Source: Acetatifactor sp.
Lineage (GTDB): Bacteria; Bacillota; Clostridia; Lachnospirales; Lachnospiraceae
Direction of reading: 5' to 3'
DNA: 11,990 bases
Assembly (NCBI GenBank): GCA_024699575.1
Contig: JAILPF010000251.1
Span: forward strand, 1 to 11,990
The stretch's first letter is position 1, and every line of letters begins with the position of its first letter. Made by a program: the position numbers and the translations under genes. The notes below the pieces were generated by a model. The model was not told where the DNA came from. It did no database searches and saw only the letters and a list, made by a program, of their open reading frames with translations. This document shows, piece by piece, positions 2,102-11,990 of this stretch.

Positions 2102-3817
2102 ATGAAAGTTAGAAAAATCAGCATTGCAACTCAGATTTTATGCGCAGTACTTGTTATGTTTCTGGTTATTGATACGTTTCTTGGCCTTTCCATTTACAAG
2201 CGTACAGAAAGTCTGCTGATCGAGCAGATTAAGAGCAATGCGATTAGCCTTGCAAACTGTGTGGCGGCGTCAGTGGATGGTGAGCTTTTAAAACAAGTGG
2301 GCGCGGGTGATGTGGAAAGTGAAGCTTTCCGGACGATTCATGATACGCTGACGGTATTTCTGGAAAATGCGGATGTGGAGTATGTATATACTATCCGGAA
2401 AAGCAGCTCGGGTGGGACAGAGTTTGCAGTGGATTCCGATCCTGAGAATCCCGGACTTGCGGGTGATGCATTTGACGCTGATGCGGAGGATGTGAATGCG
2501 GTTTTTTCCGGAAGGGCTGTGGTAAATGATAAACCCTATACCGATGAGTGGGGGACTCATTTGAGTGCATACAGTCCCATTTATGCCGGTGGGAATATTG
2601 CAGGTGTTGCGGTAATTGACATCAGTGTAGATTGGATTAAAGAACAGACGAGTGTTCTTGCTGCTATGATTTTAGGCATCTGTATTGTCGTGATGATAAT
2701 CGGAGTGGCAGTAATGTTACTGCTTAGCAGAATATTGAGGACCCGTTTCGAAAAGCTGAATACAAAAGTGGTGGAATTAACACAGGGCAATGGCGATTTG
2801 ACCCGTAAAATCGAACTGAAAAGCGGCGACGAATTCGAAGTAATAGGTGAGAATATCAACGAACTGTTGGCATATATCAGAGGGATTATGTTGAATATTG
2901 CACATAATTCCGATGAGCTGAAAATGTCTTCCAGTAATATAGCACTGAATTTGGAGGAAGCCAACGTATCTGCGACTGATGTCAGTTCCACTATGGAGGA
3001 GATGAGCGCTATCATGCAGGATGCTTCCTCTTCACTGAATCAGATTGACGGGTTGATGGCGGATATTACAGATGCTTTCGGTGGAATTGTAAAGCGCATT
3101 AATGAGGGCAGGAATTTTTCGCAGAACATTAAGCAGGATGCTGTGAACATTGGAACTCAGGCTGTGAACGAGCAGAGAGATGCCAAGGAAAAAGCGGATG
3201 AGATGGCTAAAAGCGTTGCAGAGCGAATCGAAAAGTCCAAGGCGGTGGAACAGATTAAAGTTTTGACAGAGAATATTTTAAATATCACCAGTCAGACGAA
3301 TCTGCTGGCATTAAATGCAAGCATCGAAGCGGCAAGAGCAGGGGAGAGCGGAAAAGGCTTTGCGGTGGTTGCATCAGAGATTGGTAATCTGGCACAGGAT
3401 TCTGCCAATGCGGCTACGGAGATTCAAGAGGTATCTGCAAAAGTGATTTCTGCTGTGGACGAGCTGGCGAAAGAGGCAAACAGAATGCTCCGGTTTATCA
3501 GCGAAGTGGCTATGAATGGATATAGCGGGCTGGTTGAAACCAGCGGTAAATTCAAAGAGAGTGCTGAAAGATTTGATGAAATCATAGGAGAGTTTTCTGA
3601 AATCAGTGCTAATATACAACGTGATATCGACGGTATGCAGAAATCTACGGACAGCGTAAATAAGACAGTGGAGGAATCCACGCATGGCGTGGTCAATGCA
3701 GCTCAGAAAGCATTGAATATGAAAAATAATATGGCACAAATCGGAAGTGAGGCGGAAAACAGCAGTCAGGTATCCAATGCACTTTATGCAGAGGTTGGTA
3801 AATTTAAGTTGCAGTAA
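2102..3817 (+). CDS. Transmembrane methyl-accepting chemotaxis protein (chemoreceptor)
   Basis: A 571-residue receptor with classical topology. A first membrane helix spans about residues 9-30, and an extracytoplasmic sensor of about 150 residues follows. It contains YVYTIRK and GVAVIDIS segments that look like a Cache/PAS-like (PDC) fold; this is an inference. A second helix lies at about 186-210, then a HAMP domain (about 210-265), then a long helical signalling domain. The hairpin tip is unmistakable: [18 protein letters not shown] at roughly 398-415, followed by [16 protein letters not shown]. This tip normally contacts CheA and CheW. No CheR/CheB-tethering pentapeptide ends the protein (it finishes KFKLQ). 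A strong AAAGGGGA site 8 nt upstream supports the start. It is the first gene of a three-gene operon, 33 nt ahead of the FapA-like gene. Ligand unknown; no cheA, cheW or flagellar gene is in the window, so its output partner is elsewhere or unconventional. Confidence 0.92.
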
Positions 3818-3850
3818 AAAGTAATATTCGGAGGCAGGTGAGGCTTGACC

Positions 3851-6136
3851 ATGGTTTTGCAGGATGAATTGCTAAAAGCGGGCTTTAGTAACAACCAAAT
3901 AGAAGAAATCAAAGCAGGACTGAAAGCAGGACTGGATATCGACAAGTACGCGGACAAAAAATATCACTCTATTCAGATGCGACAAATACGTCTTGGATTG
4001 GAGAAGGGGCTGCCTGTTGAATATTATGCTGACCCAAAGTATGACTGGCTGCAGATGGAGGAGCTTCGCAAAGGTCTGGAGGATGATCTGGATGTTGCGG
4101 TGTACGCAGATTACAATATTCCATATGACAAAATGCAACAGTTGCGAGAGGGGCTTAAAGATGGGCTCAATCTTTTAGAGTACTTGAAGTACAGTGCCGG
4201 AATTATCGGACAGCTTCACAAAGCTTTATTGGACAGTGTCAATATTCTTCCTTACGTGGAGGAGGGATATGACGCGGAACAGCTACAGGAAATCAGGATT
4301 GCGTTAGCTCGCAAAATTGATTTGGATCCATATCTTTCGAAGGAATACAGAAGTCCCGCATTGGCGGAAATCCGTGAAGGATTAGCAATCGGCGTGGATG
4401 TAAGCGTTTATGCGAAAGTTGATTACAGCTGGCTTCAGATGCGAGAAATCCGTCTGGGCATGGAAAACCGAATAGATGTTTCCCATTATGCCAGCCCATA
4501 TTACAGCTGGGAACAGATGCGAGAGATTCGTACAGGCCTCCAGGAAGGTCTGGATGTCAGCGATTATGGTCGTCTACGTTTCCCTGCCAGTGAAATGAGA
4601 CGCAGGCATAATCTGCTGCGTAAGCAGATGCTTGCTCAGAGTGTGGTGGAACAACCGAAAGCACCTGAGGAAACATTACAAACGGTGGAACATACGACGC
4701 CCGTAGAGGAACCCCAGAAACATCAGGAGACTTCATCACAACCGGTTGCATCGACCGGTTACTCAGAAGAAATTTATGAAGAGATGGTTAAAAACCAGGA
4801 GCTCCTTCTAGCGGTTGAACAAAATGCAATGGTGGCATTTATAACCATTACGAGGAGACGTGAAGTACCTTCCGGAGTACTATATAAGTTTTTGGAGGCG
4901 AATGGAATCCGAAGGGGAATCAACGACGATAGAATTGCAGAGATAGCGGAAGGACATTATGAAGTAGAGCGGCCGATTCTGATTGCCCAGGGACAGATTT
5001 CACGCAAGGGAAAAGACGGCTGGTATGAGTACTTTTTCCGGACAGAATTTAAAAGGTCGCCGAAACAGAGGGCTGACGGCTCTGTTGATTTCAGAAATAT
5101 CGACTGGTTTGAGACAGTACAGGAAAATCAGATGTTGGCGATTTATCATGGTGCGGAGGAAGGAGAAGAGGGCTATACGGTTTATGGCTCGGTAGTTTCG
5201 GCAAGAAAGGGAACCGAGCAGAAAATGCTTCGAGGCGAAGGCTTTTATCTGGATGATGACCAGAGAACCTATCGTGCGTCTGTCAGCGGAATGATCACAC
5301 TGGAAGGTACGCACATGACTGTCTCAAAGCATATGGATGTACCGGAGGTGAATTTTGCCACAGGTGATTTGACCTTCGACGGAAGTATCCATGTTTTGGG
5401 AAATGTGGAGAATGGCGTTAAAATCAAGGCTACCGGTGATATTGTTGTGAGTGGAAATGTAGGCTCTGCATATTTAGAGAGTGATGCCAACGTGGTCCTT
5501 GAACAGGGAATGAATGCAGATGGTGAAGGTTCCATCAAAGCTGGAAAAGATGTAAACAGTCGCTTCTTTGAATCTGTCTCCGTGGAAGCGGGCGGTGATA
5601 TCCGGTTTAATACCAGCTTGAATTCTACTCTTATTGCACATGGTAAAATTGAGAGTGCCCTGGCAGTTGCTGGTGGACTCAGCTATTCAATGAAGGGATT
5701 TGTATTACAAAATGTGGGCAATAAAGCAGGTCTTCGCACACAGATTCGGTTGGGTATCAATGAAGCGTTGAAACAGGAACGTGCAGAATTAAAGCAACAA
5801 CAGGTAGACGTGCAGGCTGAAATCAGCACGTTAAAGAATGCATACAGTGAAATGCAGAGTAAATTTCCACCGGAATTTCGAGTGGCACTTCCGATGTATC
5901 AAAAGGTTGAGAATGCTATTTTCACAAAGGAGAGAGAAATGAATGAATTACTGGCGCAGGAGCAGGAGCTGCTGCAGAGGATGCGTCAGGAGAATGACGC
6001 CAAAATTGTTATCAGAGGAGAGGCGTTTGAAGGAGTTTCTGCGGATATCAACAGCTTGCGTTGGAAGGCAAATAATGAATATGATTTTACTCTGAAGCTT
6101 GGAAATCAAAGAATCCTCGTGATTTCTAATAAATAA
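3851..6136 (+). CDS. FapA/DUF342-family protein with N-terminal 26-residue repeat array
   Basis: A 761-residue protein with no signal peptide or membrane helix, so presumably cytosolic. Residues 13-244 are nine tandem repeats of 26 residues (see repeat entry). Residues about 262-305 are a Pro/Glu/Gln/Thr linker. Residues about 306-761 match the FapA (DUF342) family: NQELLLAVEQNAMVAFITI at the start of the domain, YEYFFRTEFKRSP, and a Gly/Val-rich parallel beta-helix-like stretch (GDLTFDGSIHVLGNVE, IKATGDIVVSGNV, GSIKAGKDV). A coiled-coil hairpin follows at about 636-700, then a final beta segment ending RILVISNK. FapA proteins are poorly understood; they have been linked to flagellar assembly and cell-surface or polarity functions. 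I choose ATG 3851 because AGGTGAGG lies 7 nt before it; a TTG at 3845 behind GGAGG would add two residues. The gene sits between a chemoreceptor and an HD-GYP regulator, so I infer it acts downstream of sensing or c-di-GMP. Confidence 0.85.
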   Translation: MVLQDELLKAGFSNNQIEEIKAGLKAGLDIDKYADKKYHSIQMRQIRLGLEKGLPVEYYADPKYDWLQMEELRKGLEDDLDVAVYADYNIPYDKMQQLREGLKDGLNLLEYLKYSAGIIGQLHKALLDSVNILPYVEEGYDAEQLQEIRIALARKIDLDPYLSKEYRSPALAEIREGLAIGVDVSVYAKVDYSWLQMREIRLGMENRIDVSHYASPYYSWEQMREIRTGLQEGLDVSDYGRLRFPASEMRRRHNLLRKQMLAQSVVEQPKAPEETLQTVEHTTPVEEPQKHQETSSQPVASTGYSEEIYEEMVKNQELLLAVEQNAMVAFITITRRREVPSGVLYKFLEANGIRRGINDDRIAEIAEGHYEVERPILIAQGQISRKGKDGWYEYFFRTEFKRSPKQRADGSVDFRNIDWFETVQENQMLAIYHGAEEGEEGYTVYGSVVSARKGTEQKMLRGEGFYLDDDQRTYRASVSGMITLEGTHMTVSKHMDVPEVNFATGDLTFDGSIHVLGNVENGVKIKATGDIVVSGNVGSAYLESDANVVLEQGMNADGEGSIKAGKDVNSRFFESVSVEAGGDIRFNTSLNSTLIAHGKIESALAVAGGLSYSMKGFVLQNVGNKAGLRTQIRLGINEALKQERAELKQQQVDVQAEISTLKNAYSEMQSKFPPEFRVALPMYQKVENAIFTKEREMNELLAQEQELLQRMRQENDAKIVIRGEAFEGVSADINSLRWKANNEYDFTLKLGNQRILVISNK
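3887..4582 (+). repeat. Nine tandem 26-residue (78-bp) repeats within the FapA-like protein
   Basis: Read by eye, the protein repeats with consensus roughly [YWx]xQMxEIRxGLExGLDV followed by SxYAxPxY. Units cover residues 13-38, 39-64, 65-90, 91-116, 117-140 (a 24-residue variant), 141-166, 167-192, 193-218 and 219-244; a tenth partial unit (ASEMRRRHNLLRKQ) trails off to about 4627. The DNA is clearly diverged between units, so this is an old protein-level repeat rather than recent DNA slippage. The pattern of one amphipathic helix, a Gly turn, then a short YA-containing segment suggests a helical solenoid or binding scaffold. Similar QM-EIR-GLE-GLDV repeats occur, from memory, in hypothetical proteins of gut Firmicutes, with unknown function. 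Confidence 0.88.
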
Positions 6137-6166
6137 TTACAACTTGGGAAGGAAGTGGACTTACCG

Positions 6167-7288
6167 ATGAGAGACACAGTTTTGATTGTAGACGACACAC
6201 AACTGAATCGTATTCTCCTAAGGGGTGTTTTGGCAGAGGACTTCAAAGTCCTTGAAGCGGAGAACGGAAAAGAGGCGTTTGAAATCATCGAGAAAAGTAA
6301 AGATGATATTGCCGCACTGCTGCTTGACCTTGTCATGCCGGAGATGGATGGTGAGGAGCTTCTTTCCACTTTACATAAGAAAGGGTATGGCGATGAATTT
6401 CCGATTTTGATTGTCACGGCAGAACAATCACTGGACAGGGTGGAGAAATGCTTTGACTATGGAATCGCTGATTTTATCAGAAAACCGTTTAAACCGGGTC
6501 TGGTGAAAAAAAGAGTAAAAAGAATTGTCGATATCTATTCTCAAAAGAATGATTTTAAGGACAAGCTGGGGCGGCAGACTGCCACACTGCAAAGCCAGTA
6601 CAGATTGCTTCAGAGTCAGGCGGAACAGTTAAAACAGAATAATGAGAAGATTCTGGATGTTGTGGGTACTATTGCAGAATACAGAAATATGGAAAGCGGA
6701 GGGCACATCAGAAACGTTAAAAAATACACAGAAATCCTTGCCAACCATGTGATGAACGAGTATCCGCAATACGGTTTGACGCCCGAAAAGGTTCGCATCA
6801 TTGTATCAGCGAGCGCCTTACATGATATTGGCAAGATTGTTATACCGGATCATGTGCTCTTAAAGCCTGGTAAACTGACAAATGAAGAGTATGAGCTGAT
6901 GTGTTCACACACGCTCAGAGGCTATGAGATTATTGAACGCATTACCGGCGCATGGAATGAAGAGTATGCACAATACAGTAAAGAGATTGCGAGACACCAT
7001 CATGAGAGGTATGACGGCAGAGGATATGCGGAGGGCTTATCGGGAGAGGCAATTCCGATTTCAGCTCAAATCGTAGCTGTAGCAGACTGTTTTGATGCAC
7101 TGTTAACGGATAAAATATATAGAGCTGCGTTTTCCTTTGATGAGGCATATCCAATGATTTTGAATGGCGAATGCGGTGTATTCTCGCCGAAGCTGATGGA
7201 AAGCTTCCGAAATGCAAGAACAGAATTAGAAGAATACTATCGGTTTTTGAAACGCGAAGAGGCGGAGAAGGAAAATGTAACCACTTGA
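6167..7288 (+). CDS. Response regulator with HD-GYP output domain (predicted c-di-GMP phosphodiesterase)
   Basis: A 373-residue two-domain cytosolic protein. The receiver (about 1-122) has the acidic pair D9-D10, phosphoacceptor D54 in LLLDLVMPEMDG, T84 and K106 (IRKPFKP), so it looks phosphorylatable. A helical, Gln-rich linker (about 123-160) leads to an HD-GYP domain (about 161-373) with SGGHIRNVKKY, ALHDIGKIVIP (H219, D220), LLKPGKLT, H248, RHHHERYDGRGY (H277-H279) and a VAVADCFDALLTDKIYR segment. HD-GYP enzymes hydrolyse cyclic-di-GMP using a metal centre. The signature GYP triad reads GYA here (residues 286-288), while HD, the histidines and DGxG are retained. I use ATG 6167, with GGAAGGAAG about 11 nt upstream; a GTG at 6155 sits inside that ribosome site. 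Third gene of the operon, 30 nt after the FapA-like gene; its kinase is not in the window. Confidence 0.9.
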   Translation: MRDTVLIVDDTQLNRILLRGVLAEDFKVLEAENGKEAFEIIEKSKDDIAALLLDLVMPEMDGEELLSTLHKKGYGDEFPILIVTAEQSLDRVEKCFDYGIADFIRKPFKPGLVKKRVKRIVDIYSQKNDFKDKLGRQTATLQSQYRLLQSQAEQLKQNNEKILDVVGTIAEYRNMESGGHIRNVKKYTEILANHVMNEYPQYGLTPEKVRIIVSASALHDIGKIVIPDHVLLKPGKLTNEEYELMCSHTLRGYEIIERITGAWNEEYAQYSKEIARHHHERYDGRGYAEGLSGEAIPISAQIVAVADCFDALLTDKIYRAAFSFDEAYPMILNGECGVFSPKLMESFRNARTELEEYYRFLKREEAEKENVTT

Positions 7289-7428: not shown

Positions 7429-10251
7429 ATGACAAATCAGAAATTTAATTTAAAAGAATATGCAAGAACGGCAAGAGAGGCAGTCGCAGAGGGAATTGTC
7501 TTAATTAAAAATGCAGGCAATATTTTACCGCTTACAGGAAAACATAAGGTCGCTTTGTTTGGACGTACTCAGTTTAATTATTACAAAAGCGGCACAGGTT
7601 CCGGTGGACTGGTGAACACCAGATATGTGACAGGAATTTATGAGGCGTTGGCTTCCGATGCAGATATTGAGCTAAATACCACTGTCAGAAAGACTTACGA
7701 AGATTGGGTGGAGACACATCCCTTTGATGTAGGTCAGGGCTGGGCACAGGAGCCGTGGTTTCAGGAAGAAATGCCATTGACAGAGCAATTGGTCATTGAG
7801 GCGGCAAAGGAATCGGATACAGCCATTATTATTCTGGGCAGAACAGCCGGCGAGGATAAGGACAATAAGGCTGAGGCGGGAAGCTATCTTTTGACCGCTG
7901 AAGAACTGGATATGCTGGGAAAGGTCTGTGGGGCTTTTACACGTACCGTAGTGCTTTTAAATGTGGGAAATATTATTGATATGAAGTGGGTGGATGAATA
8001 TAACCCGTCAGCTGTACTTTACGTTTGGCAGGGCGGTCAGGAAGGCGGCAATGGCGTGCTGGATATCCTGAAAGGAACCGTGAATCCATCCGGACGATTG
8101 AGTGATACGATACCGAATAACATTGAAGATTGCTTTTCGACAGCTTACCATGGAGATGCGGACAGCAACACATATGCAGAGGATATCTACGTGGGATATC
8201 GTTATTTTGAAACCTTTGCGAAGGAGAAAGTGAAATATCCCTTTGGTTATGGTCTTTCCTACACCACGTTTTCACATGAACTGACGGCTGTGAAGGGGCA
8301 GGAAAATGAGTTGACTTTTGAGGTGAAGGTTACTAACACAGGTGCAGTGGCCGGAAAAGAGACAGTTTTGTTATTTGTGAAGGCACCTCAGGGAAAGCTT
8401 GGAAAGGCAGAACGTACCTTATGTGCATTCGCTAAATCTGATAATTTAAAGTCAGGAGAGACACAGACACTTACCATGGTTGTTCCGAAATATGTACTGG
8501 CTTCCTATGATGACAGTGGTGCTTCGGGATACAAGAGCTGCTATGTATTAGAGCAGGGAGTATATGATTTCTACTTAGGCGGAGATGTGCGTAAGGCACA
8601 GGAGATTTACAGTTGGACAGTAACCGAGACAACGGTGGTAGAAAGATTAAGTGAAGCCCTTGCACCGGTGAAGACTTTTAAACGTCTGAAACCACAACAA
8701 CAGGTGGATGGGACATTTACTGTTGCCTGGGAGAATGCTCCCGTCAGAACTGTGTCCTGGAAAGAAACCAGAGCAAATCACCTTCCTGTGGAGCTTGAAT
8801 TTACAGGGGATAAGGGATATCAATTGAAAGATGTGCGTGACGGGAAAGTTACAGTGGAACAGTTTGTGGCACAGCTTACGGATGAGGAGTTGATGACGAT
8901 TGCCCGCGGAGAAGGAATGTCTCCTGCCGGTGTGACACCGGGAATCGCAGGTGCCTTCGGCGGCGTCTCAGAAAGCTTGCGCAACTTTGGAATTCCTAAG
9001 GGTGGTTGCTCTGATGGTCCCAGCGGAATTCGTATGGATAGTGGGGCGAAGGCGTTTGCAATGCCGAACGGAACCTGCCTTGCCTGCTCATTTAACGAGG
9101 CGTTATCTGAGAAGCTTTATGAGTTTGAAGGGATGGAACTTCGCAAGAACCATATCGATACTTTGCTTGGGCCCGGAATGAATATTCATCGAAACCCCCT
9201 GAACGGACGTAATTTTGAATATTTTTCGGAAGATCCTCTTGTGACCGGTAAGATGGCAGCAGCACAGCTTCGTGGAATGCATAAGTATGGTGTGACGGGA
9301 ACGATTAAGCATTTTGCCTGCAACAATCAGGAATATATGCGTTCCAAAGTGGATACGGTTGCATCGGAGCGTGCACTCAGAGAAATTTACTTAAGAGGAT
9401 ATGAAATCGCTGTCAAAGAGGCAGGAGCTTTCCTGATTATGACCAGCTATAACCGTATTAACGGAATCCACGCTGCAAGCAATTATGATCTTTTGACTAC
9501 CATTCTTCGTAATGAATGGGGGTATAACGGTGCAGTAATGACAGACTGGTGGGCGCAGGGAAATGAGGAAAATGAAGCTGCGCAGATGGGACATACCGCT
9601 GTGATGGTGCGTGCACAAAATGATTTGTACATGGTAATGCCGGATGCAGGTCTTCCCACCGCAAAGGATACTTCCAAAGAGGGTTTGGAAAATGGTCTGG
9701 TAACACGAGGAGAATTTCAAAGGACAGCCATTAACATCTGTAATACGTTGCTCAGACTGCCGGCCTTGAGCTTTATGCTGGATGAGAGAACAGAGTTGGA
9801 TTTGGAACTGGAAGCAGTGCAGGAAGAGGATGCTGACGACATGGAAATAAAGCACACAGTGGAGGAAAGTGCTGAAGCAGGAGTGTTTTATCTGACGGAT
9901 ATGGACACCTCAAAAGGTACGTCCAATCTGTATCAGATGGCTTCCGGCGGAGGTGCATACCGTCTTACCATAGAGTGTTTGGTGGAGGGAATCAGCGAGC
10001 TGGCACAGGTCCCGCTTACTATCTTTAAGGAGCGAGAATTGCTGAAGACCATCACACTTACCGGAAAAGATACGTCTATCTGCACAGAAGTGATAGAACC
10101 GATTATTGCGACCAACACCACTTTCTTCCTGAAGTTTTACTTTGGCCAGGGTGGCATGAAGATTAAATCCTGTAAGTTGGAACGTACCATGAGCCAGGAT
10201 GAACTGATGCAGAAAATGAGAGAGTACAGAGAGAACGGAACCGCATTCTGA
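7429..10251 (+). CDS. GH3-family beta-glucosidase with permuted domain order
   Basis: A 940-residue glycoside hydrolase family 3 enzyme without a signal peptide, so predicted to cleave imported beta-linked oligosaccharides in the cytosol. The domains are in reverse of the common order. Residues about 8-270 are the alpha/beta sandwich (AVAEGIVLIKNAGNILPL, then YAEDIYVGYRYFE at 249-261). The FnIII domain follows YPFGYGLSYTTF and spans about 278-400. The TIM barrel lies at about 470-795, with SDGPSGIR (D529), GRNFEYFSEDP (R594), KHFACNNQE (K627, H628) and AVMTDWWAQG, whose D706 aligns with the GH3 nucleophile. E251 is a candidate acid/base residue, unproven. A further 140 or so residues after the barrel form an unrecognised beta-rich tail. 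This permuted order is known from rumen bacterial enzymes such as those of Butyrivibrio and Ruminococcus. Exact substrate (cellobiose, gentiobiose, xylo-oligosaccharide or other glycoside) cannot be assigned. Ribosome site GAGGAG fixes the start. Confidence 0.93.
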   Translation: MTNQKFNLKEYARTAREAVAEGIVLIKNAGNILPLTGKHKVALFGRTQFNYYKSGTGSGGLVNTRYVTGIYEALASDADIELNTTVRKTYEDWVETHPFDVGQGWAQEPWFQEEMPLTEQLVIEAAKESDTAIIILGRTAGEDKDNKAEAGSYLLTAEELDMLGKVCGAFTRTVVLLNVGNIIDMKWVDEYNPSAVLYVWQGGQEGGNGVLDILKGTVNPSGRLSDTIPNNIEDCFSTAYHGDADSNTYAEDIYVGYRYFETFAKEKVKYPFGYGLSYTTFSHELTAVKGQENELTFEVKVTNTGAVAGKETVLLFVKAPQGKLGKAERTLCAFAKSDNLKSGETQTLTMVVPKYVLASYDDSGASGYKSCYVLEQGVYDFYLGGDVRKAQEIYSWTVTETTVVERLSEALAPVKTFKRLKPQQQVDGTFTVAWENAPVRTVSWKETRANHLPVELEFTGDKGYQLKDVRDGKVTVEQFVAQLTDEELMTIARGEGMSPAGVTPGIAGAFGGVSESLRNFGIPKGGCSDGPSGIRMDSGAKAFAMPNGTCLACSFNEALSEKLYEFEGMELRKNHIDTLLGPGMNIHRNPLNGRNFEYFSEDPLVTGKMAAAQLRGMHKYGVTGTIKHFACNNQEYMRSKVDTVASERALREIYLRGYEIAVKEAGAFLIMTSYNRINGIHAASNYDLLTTILRNEWGYNGAVMTDWWAQGNEENEAAQMGHTAVMVRAQNDLYMVMPDAGLPTAKDTSKEGLENGLVTRGEFQRTAINICNTLLRLPALSFMLDERTELDLELEAVQEEDADDMEIKHTVEESAEAGVFYLTDMDTSKGTSNLYQMASGGGAYRLTIECLVEGISELAQVPLTIFKERELLKTITLTGKDTSICTEVIEPIIATNTTFFLKFYFGQGGMKIKSCKLERTMSQDELMQKMREYRENGTAF

Positions 10252-10280
10252 TAGATAACTTGGATAACCAGAATTATAAT

Positions 10281-10331
10281 AATCCCCGATACATTTATGT
10301 GTAGATAATGTACCGGGGATTTTGATTATTT
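10281..10331 (+). terminator. Rho-independent terminator of the beta-glucosidase gene
   Basis: A 15-bp stem with one A-C mismatch (10281-10295 with 10307-10321) contains a GC-rich CCCCG/CGGGG core and an 11-nt loop, and is followed by a T-rich tail (TTGATTATTT). It starts 29 nt after the stop codon. The 5' arm is A-rich just upstream, so weak activity from the opposite strand is possible. Confidence 0.78.
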
Positions 10332-10334
10332 CAT

Positions 10335-10375
10335 GTCAAAAGTAGCCATATAAATATCTTAAGATTTTGACTACT
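10335..10375. repeat. Nested inverted repeats in the AT-rich intergenic region
   Basis: GTCAAAA (10335-10341) and TTTTGAC (10365-10371) form a 7-bp inverted repeat; AGTAG (10341-10345) and CTACT (10371-10375) form an overlapping one. ATCTTAAGAT (10356-10365) is a perfect 10-bp palindrome inside. This could be a regulator site, a weak hairpin or chance in AT-rich DNA. No coding sequence is evident between 10252 and 10522 on either strand. Confidence 0.35.
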
Positions 10376-10396
10376 ATTGTGAAACGATTCGCAACA

Positions 10397-11034: not shown

Positions 11035-11481
11035 GTGACGAAGGATAAGAGGTTCGCTTTTATTGTATCTACACCTATTGTATCTATTATAATTGGCATT
11101 TTTACGATTGTTGTTCTTGGCTTTATGGCGTTCTTTTTGAAAGGAACAATGTATTATGTAATCTCAACTGAAATGCATGTAATTGATGAAAAAACATATA
11201 TGATTGAAGAAACACTTAGTGAAGACCTTGATGAAGTTTTAAATGATAATGGGACTTGGATTTCAGCTGAAGTATACACTGTTGAAGATCCAAACAACAA
11301 GTATACGATATTATTACGGGTGAACAGAGGATTAAATACTATTTACTGGAGTGGAGCTATTAATCAAAAGGATAAATTTGCGGTTGAGGGTATGAATTCT
11401 GTTCCTGTATATTTAAAGCTTAATCTGGGAGAGACTTATTTAATAAATATTCTGAAAGCGAGACTGTCACATGAAAAATAA
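11035..11481 (+). CDS. Small single-pass membrane protein ahead of ABC exporter
   Basis: A 148-residue protein of no recognised family, starting with GTG at 11035 behind AAAGGGA (7 nt spacing). A short basic N-terminus (MTKDKRF) precedes one long hydrophobic helix (about residues 8-32, with TPIVSIIIGIFTIVVLGF), so it should sit with the N-terminus inside and about 115 residues outside. The exterior part is acidic and beta-rich (ETLSEDLDEVL, KYTILLRVNRGLNTIYWSG, GMNSVPVYLKLNLGETYL). The overall shape, and its 11-nt overlap with the following exporter gene, suggest an accessory subunit like the short HlyD-type membrane fusion proteins of peptide exporters, though the HlyD coiled coil is absent. 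Function is inferred from context only. Local base composition is clearly more AT-rich than in the genes at 2102-10251. Confidence 0.72.
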   Translation: MTKDKRFAFIVSTPIVSIIIGIFTIVVLGFMAFFLKGTMYYVISTEMHVIDEKTYMIEETLSEDLDEVLNDNGTWISAEVYTVEDPNNKYTILLRVNRGLNTIYWSGAINQKDKFAVEGMNSVPVYLKLNLGETYLINILKARLSHEK

Positions 11482-11990
11482 TACAAAAATTCATGTAAGT
11501 GAGGATTTGTATCGGTTAAGGCGGTTGTGGGAACTGATGAAAGGGTACAGACTGTCATTTGCAAATTTGGCTTTTTGCGATATTATGGCACCGATAATAT
11601 CTATGGCATATCCATTATTATTTGCAATATTGATTGATGAGGTTTTTTATAACAGGAACTATCCGCTTCTTAAGATTATTGTAATAGCATATCTAATTAC
11701 CTATCTTTCAAGTTCTGCATTGTATTTTATTCAACGTTGTACGTTAGCACATTTGCTGACGGCGTTTAGTGGAAAAATGAAGAAAGAAGTGCTGAAGAAA
11801 ATATTTAGGTTTAAAGGGAGCTATTTGTCCTTGATAAATACAGGGGATCATGTTCTACTTCTTAATTATGATATTGATGAAATCATCAACTATTTGCATT
11901 TTAATTTATTTTATCCATTATCAAGTGTACTCAGACTTTTGGTTACTGTGATAACTGTTTTTTGCTTAAATTATAAAATAGCCTTTTTGA
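11471..11990 (+). CDS. ABC exporter, N-terminal transmembrane part (3' end outside window)
   Basis: The frame is open from ATG 11471 to the right edge, giving 173 codons. After a charged N-terminus (KIHVSEDLYRLRRLWELMKGY) come hydrophobic segments: ISMAYPLLFAILIDEVF, LKIIVIAYLITYLSSSALYF and LSSVLRLLVTVITVFCL. Between them is INTGDHVLLLNYDIDEI, equivalent to the coupling-helix region (S/T-G-D-x-x-x-R-x-x-x-D) of type I ABC exporters of the MsbA/LanT kind. The ATP-binding domain lies beyond the window. No N-terminal C39 peptidase is present, because the protein starts directly at the membrane domain, so it would not itself cleave a leader peptide. The start overlaps the upstream membrane-protein gene by 11 nt, implying translational coupling; its own ribosome site (GCGAGA) is weak. 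Likely cargo is a peptide or small molecule, not determinable here. Confidence 0.85.
   Translation, partial: MKNNTKIHVSEDLYRLRRLWELMKGYRLSFANLAFCDIMAPIISMAYPLLFAILIDEVFYNRNYPLLKIIVIAYLITYLSSSALYFIQRCTLAHLLTAFSGKMKKEVLKKIFRFKGSYLSLINTGDHVLLLNYDIDEIINYLHFNLFYPLSSVLRLLVTVITVFCLNYKIAFL

Follow-up and report, generated by a model that had tools for sequence, protein, structure and literature searches.

A Nine-Unit Repeat Array on a Putative FapA Paralogue of Lachnospiraceae: A Candidate Docking Arm for a REC-HD-GYP Enzyme

FapA is common in flagellated bacteria; to our knowledge, little has been learned outside Vibrio about how it works. The window analyzed here (11,990 nucleotides of Acetatifactor sp., contig JAILPF010000251.1 of assembly GCA_024699575.1) contains a FapA gene (positions 3851..6136, + strand) whose product carries an N-terminal array of nine repeats, and it raises the question of what such an array is for. 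The fusion, termed array-FapA below, is usually followed by a gene for a REC-HD-GYP response regulator, a predicted phosphodiesterase of cyclic di-GMP (c-di-GMP). We favor, at a probability of about 0.45, the reading that the protein is a paralogue of FapA and that its array serves to dock the enzyme, or the phosphorelay of the enzyme, close to the base of the flagellum.

The repeat array and its fusion to FapA

The array-FapA gene encodes 761 residues from its ATG; an alternative TTG at 3845 would give 763, the reading frame being open. Numbered from the TTG, the FapA_N domain (PF20250) was matched in Pfam at residues 322-487 (4808..5305, + strand; E 7.6e-34, 117.1 bits against a cut-off of 27), and the FapA beta-solenoid with its helical hairpin (PF03961) at residues 497-748 (5333..6088, + strand; E 1.4e-47, 163 bits against a cut-off of 31). 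Both hairpin helices (640-673 and 683-717) were seen in the predicted structure. An intact FapA-type beta-helix and coiled-coil domain had been described in an earlier note made from the letters alone. That note had also described a Pro/Glu-rich linker, which was located at residues 268-307 (4646..4765, + strand); it is rich in Thr as well, contains 5 Pro and 7 Glu in its 40 residues, and is predicted to be disordered. Most of the relatives listed have a much shorter linker. No Pfam family was matched in the first 320 residues.

Residues 1-262, numbered from the ATG, were compared with themselves using BLOSUM62. The score peaked at 281 at a lag of 26, with a runner-up of 128 at a lag of 52; the best score over lags 10-119 in 1000 shuffles was -25. 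Self-comparison, a structure model and a hidden Markov model (HMM) of the unit placed the array at 3881..4576 (+ strand) and divided it into nine units, seven of 26 residues and two of 25. A partial tenth unit (4577..4645, + strand), defined by the structure model and unit cutting, forms a capping helix. Array and cap make up about 35% of the protein, in agreement with the nine 26-residue units and the share of one third claimed earlier. Units 4, 5 and 7 of the window protein are degenerate, and the unit HMM recognizes eight units in it. Applied to the 115 listed relatives that bear FapA, the same HMM found nine units in 60, eight in 54 and ten in 1. The consensus, based on 286 units without gaps taken from 42 relatives, is YxxxQMxEIRxGLExGLDVxxYA (residues present in at least 50%). 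Equivalent units compared across orthologues had a mean identity of 0.55, against 0.36 for the units within one protein (seven units compared), which argues for position-specific constraint.

When modeled alone by AlphaFold, the array was confidently predicted to be a helical solenoid (pLDDT 96.7, pTM 0.86). Of the helical docking or filament-forming scaffold imagined in the earlier note, the ordered helical fold is therefore upheld by prediction; filament formation is conjecture, as is docking, which is weighed below. None of the curated repeat models (TPR, HEAT, Sel1 and others) matched the window array, and its relatives gave scattered weak matches to them (at most 8 of 42 members per family, best E 7.5e-4). 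The window array likewise had no Pfam family and no convincing match in the PDB. Among solved alpha-solenoid types, the leucine-rich variant (LRV) has one alpha helix and one 3-10 helix per unit.

A scan of genome contigs yielded 234 relatives, the best 80 of which were taken as named loci; together with the window they form the 81 loci counted below. The fusion was matched end to end in all 80, nearly all of them labeled Lachnospiraceae, Acetatifactor, Roseburia or Lachnospira (other or broader labels: L051, L081, L084 and L094). A protein search with residues 1-265 returned 976 proteins at E <=0.001; 116 of the 120 listed carry FapA_N and FapA, one being the window's own protein. In a family sample of 397 genomes, the array was matched in 48 at E <=1e-8, not always joined to FapA, and in a class sample it was matched in 14 of 391, nine of these 14 in Lachnospiraceae. 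The array and FapA are separate, adjoining genes in six stretches (L125, L126, L127, L128, L145 and L147). The earlier note had foreseen that separate genes might betray a fusion created by assembly; such genes do occur, but judged by its recurrence the fusion is real and conserved and is no assembly artefact. In two further proteins, P0233 and P0235, three array units are combined with FapA_N and with no more of an HD-GYP domain than its tail; the two have a common start but different middles, and resemble deletions between FapA and HD-GYP genes.

The repeat is not confined to FapA proteins. Closely similar repeats occur in stand-alone arrays and in large proteins of mobile-element type; we take the precomputed Pfam accessions of the large proteins to denote ArdC, zincin, LPD25, RadC, Toprim or LPD1 domains. 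One protein with the repeat is named by its source as from Tissierella praeacuta. Others are named from Mycoplasmopsis caviae (P0252), Spiroplasma helicoides (P0178) and Enterococcus cecorum (P0276), all far from Lachnospiraceae. P0003, P0011, P0242 and others, which have the repeat beside ArdC-, LPD- or RadC-type domains, resemble the polyvalent proteins of mobile elements (PMC5512222). The arrays in these proteins exceed that of array-FapA in both length and uniformity, and no FapA domain was found in P0003, P0004, P0006 or P0011.

The neighboring REC-HD-GYP gene and a possible phosphorelay

Eighteen base pairs beyond array-FapA lies a gene (6155..7288, + strand) in which Pfam identified Response_reg (E 9.2e-24) and HD_5 (E 1.4e-25). 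It has a REC domain and the HD-GYP signature residues, as do phosphodiesterases of the RpfG type, and a c-di-GMP phosphodiesterase is predicted from them. In the 74 full-length partners, H184, H223, D224, H252, H282, H283, G288, G290 and Y291 are identical throughout, and D287 is kept in 73. The window copy departs from the RpfG type in reading GYA where GYP is expected; the Pro is present in 73 of 74. The closest NCBIfam model, the NosR family, scored 150.3 bits, far below its cut-off of 400.

The linkage of the two genes is strong. At 76 of the 81 loci, array-FapA is followed directly, in the same orientation, by a REC-HD-GYP homologue, and in a broader set this gene lies within two open reading frames (ORFs) of array-FapA in 26 of 34 untruncated stretches (a count that excludes L133, which has no FapA, and L128 and L131, which are truncated). 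No such gene was found in flanks of up to 1.5 kb at any of 16 array-less FapA loci; in matched 1.5-kb flanks, it was present at 8 of the 12 array loci that come from genomes other than the window's (the truncated L022 excluded). The enzyme is therefore tied to the array and not to FapA in general. Because the window's genome has 11 HD_5 and 13 GGDEF matches, adjacency by chance should be rare and c-di-GMP signaling is likely present. The tabulated neighbors of the repeat-DUF342 fusion thus supply a candidate, identified by gene order, for the new FapA partner that the earlier note had proposed.

A phosphorelay may feed the enzyme. The REC acceptor Asp is retained in 57 of the 74 partners, and an Hpt-type gene (one member confirmed by Pfam) stands at -1 in 27 of the 81 loci. 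Hpt occupies this place at 25 of the 57 loci that keep the Asp and at none of the 17 that have lost it (p 3e-4, a value that overstates the evidence because those 17 come from few lineages). The association runs in the direction expected if Hpt relays to REC. Upstream of array-FapA, the window has not an Hpt gene but one for a methyl-accepting chemotaxis protein (2102..3817, + strand; MCPsignal E 1e-27, Pfam). This gene ends 27 bp before the TTG and is possibly in an operon with array-FapA; just 4 of the 80 named loci (L035, L036, L037 and L042) have a chemoreceptor gene at -1 or -2.

Flagellar context, proposed role and rival explanations

In the family sample, FlhA was detected in 46 of the 48 genomes with an array and in 164 of the 349 without one; the two array genomes without FlhA are the window's own, which is 78% complete, and G260. 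Elsewhere in the window's genome, one contig (C252) carries CheW, CheC, a sigma factor and the start of an array-less FapA, and another (C83) carries a FapA end, DUF6115 and genes read as rpsB and tsf. FapA, sigma-28 and a small HTH protein of the membrane are reported to form a sub-module of flagellar superoperons (PMC11607428). DUF6115 would correspond to the last of these. Since an array-less FapA lies in these pieces of a flagellar/chemotaxis cluster, array-FapA is most likely the second FapA of its genome. It resembles the FapA of Vibrio and of the flagellar superoperon in having PF20250 and PF03961 above their cut-offs and in occurring in FlhA-bearing genomes; it differs in its N-terminal array, in its pairing with REC-HD-GYP, in the lack of adjoining flagellar genes in the window, and in the presence of that additional FapA on two contig fragments.

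Two precedents suggest, by analogy, the role of an adapter. Vibrio FapA is reported to bind EIIAGlc only when the latter is dephosphorylated (PMC6877527). In Shewanella, the binding of the polar landmark HubP to PdeB is crucial for the full function of this phosphodiesterase at the flagellated pole (PMC9061725). The helical repeats of that scaffold are of the TPR type, as reported for the FimV domain. The logic proposed for array-FapA is alike, namely a helical-repeat scaffold and a phosphodiesterase at a flagellated pole; no homology to HubP-PdeB is claimed, and the interaction is suggested here by gene order only. On this model, array-FapA would be a Lachnospiraceae paralogue, separate from the FapA without an array that belongs to the flagellar superoperon, and would serve as an adapter linking the HD-GYP enzyme to the flagellar base. 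FapA_N, the beta-solenoid and the hairpin would be located at the flagellar base or cell pole, like Vibrio FapA, and the nine-unit solenoid would act as the docking arm for the enzyme or its phosphorelay partners. The enzyme would thereby be kept where flagella are built and, when active, would lower c-di-GMP locally, favoring flagellation and motility. Physical binding, location and the direction of the effect are all things that we infer. A fuller version is more tentative. In it, a 26-residue alpha-solenoid repeat, shared with mobile-element proteins and absent from the libraries searched, would have become in this paralogue the docking arm within a dedicated module for spatial c-di-GMP control. 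The module would consist of array-FapA and REC-HD-GYP, in many cases together with Hpt, and would position a phosphodiesterase at the flagellar base in Lachnospiraceae.

Several observations weigh against the docking reading. No flagellar gene was found in the window by ORF and family scans. Arrays unattached to FapA likewise fall in FlhA-positive genomes (e.g., G076 and G257), so that kinship may explain part of the association with FlhA; neither the FlhA counts nor those for Asp and Hpt were corrected for relatedness. The 80 named loci, as the best of 234, are biased toward close relatives, and the 34-stretch set partly overlaps with the 81 loci. The acceptor Asp is replaced by Arg in 10, Lys in 5 and Asn in 2 of the 17 partners that lack it, none with Hpt at -1 (L063, L050, L092, L109, L081, L079, L108 and 10 others), and phosphorylation is therefore not universal; the RpfG type differs in this respect too. 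The whole-chain model reached a pTM of only 0.49, so the arrangement of the domains is not predicted. Finally, gene adjacency can reflect co-regulation only. In a somewhat less probable alternative, the two genes work as a unit but the array has another binding target: a landmark of the pole, the envelope or the cytoskeleton, or else FapA. The HD-GYP protein would then act only indirectly, through the c-di-GMP level or co-expression. Such an arrangement would suit the mobile-element-type proteins and stand-alone arrays, in whose chains the repeat is not accompanied by HD-GYP, and also the loci where the enzyme does not adjoin, i.e. five of 81 (L053, L075, L080, L094 and L097) and eight of 34 (L117, L127, L129, L132, L142, L143, L147 and L149); it sits less well with an enzyme seen only beside array-bearing FapA.

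Two other explanations move the emphasis away from the enzyme. The FapA part could be a MinC-like division or placement factor that works through an ATPase of the MinD/FlhG type, with the array regulating it and the c-di-GMP link secondary. Its resemblance to the C-terminal beta-solenoid of MinC is weak in both profile and fold. MinC was the best hit when the FapA family profile was compared by sequence with solved structures, at E 0.062. The RSGQ stretch of MinC has a role in MinD binding. The FapA profile positions aligned to it lack RSGQ, MinC_C scored 18.5 bits in array-FapA against a Pfam cut-off of 33.2, and no MinC N-terminal domain was detected there by Pfam; we consider this explanation unlikely. 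Least probable in our estimate is an array with no function of its own, which would decorate a lineage-specific FapA either neutrally or as a remnant of a mobile element. The appeal of this idea lies in the similar repeats beside ArdC, zincin, LPD25, Toprim, LPD1 or RadC domains, but the number of units hardly varies (114 of the 115 listed relatives have 8 or 9), and the split array and FapA genes remain adjacent in the six stretches. Moreover, units of array-FapA are more alike across orthologues than within a protein, unlike those of P0003, P0006 and P0011, which share 0.50-0.68 identity within one chain.

Other genes in the window and significance

Downstream of the gene pair, a GH3-family glycosidase of 940 aa (7429-10251, Pfam) has its GH3 C-terminal domain ahead of the N-terminal domain; in L035 the HD-GYP gene is likewise followed by a homologue of about this length, and a homologue is also hit in L036. 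An ORF of 148 aa (11035-11481) had no family match and shares 11 bp with the beginning of a permease-like ORF (11471-11990) that runs off the window and gave weak matches, below cut-offs, to bacteriocin-export ABC transporters. Beside the chemoreceptor gene, Pfam identified the end of a thioredoxin-like (AhpC-TSA/Redoxin) protein (1-495, + strand) and an MFS transporter of 460 aa (568-1950, - strand). In L116, a subtilase with a CspB-type prodomain (8623-10395, - strand) lies two genes upstream of array-FapA; its cluster occurs at -2 in three loci and at +5 in one.

The most useful result is the conserved pairing of array-FapA with a predicted c-di-GMP phosphodiesterase. Such a conserved pair would tie FapA to c-di-GMP signaling in gut bacteria in a concrete and testable way. 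It would also assign a function to a repeat without a name in Pfam.
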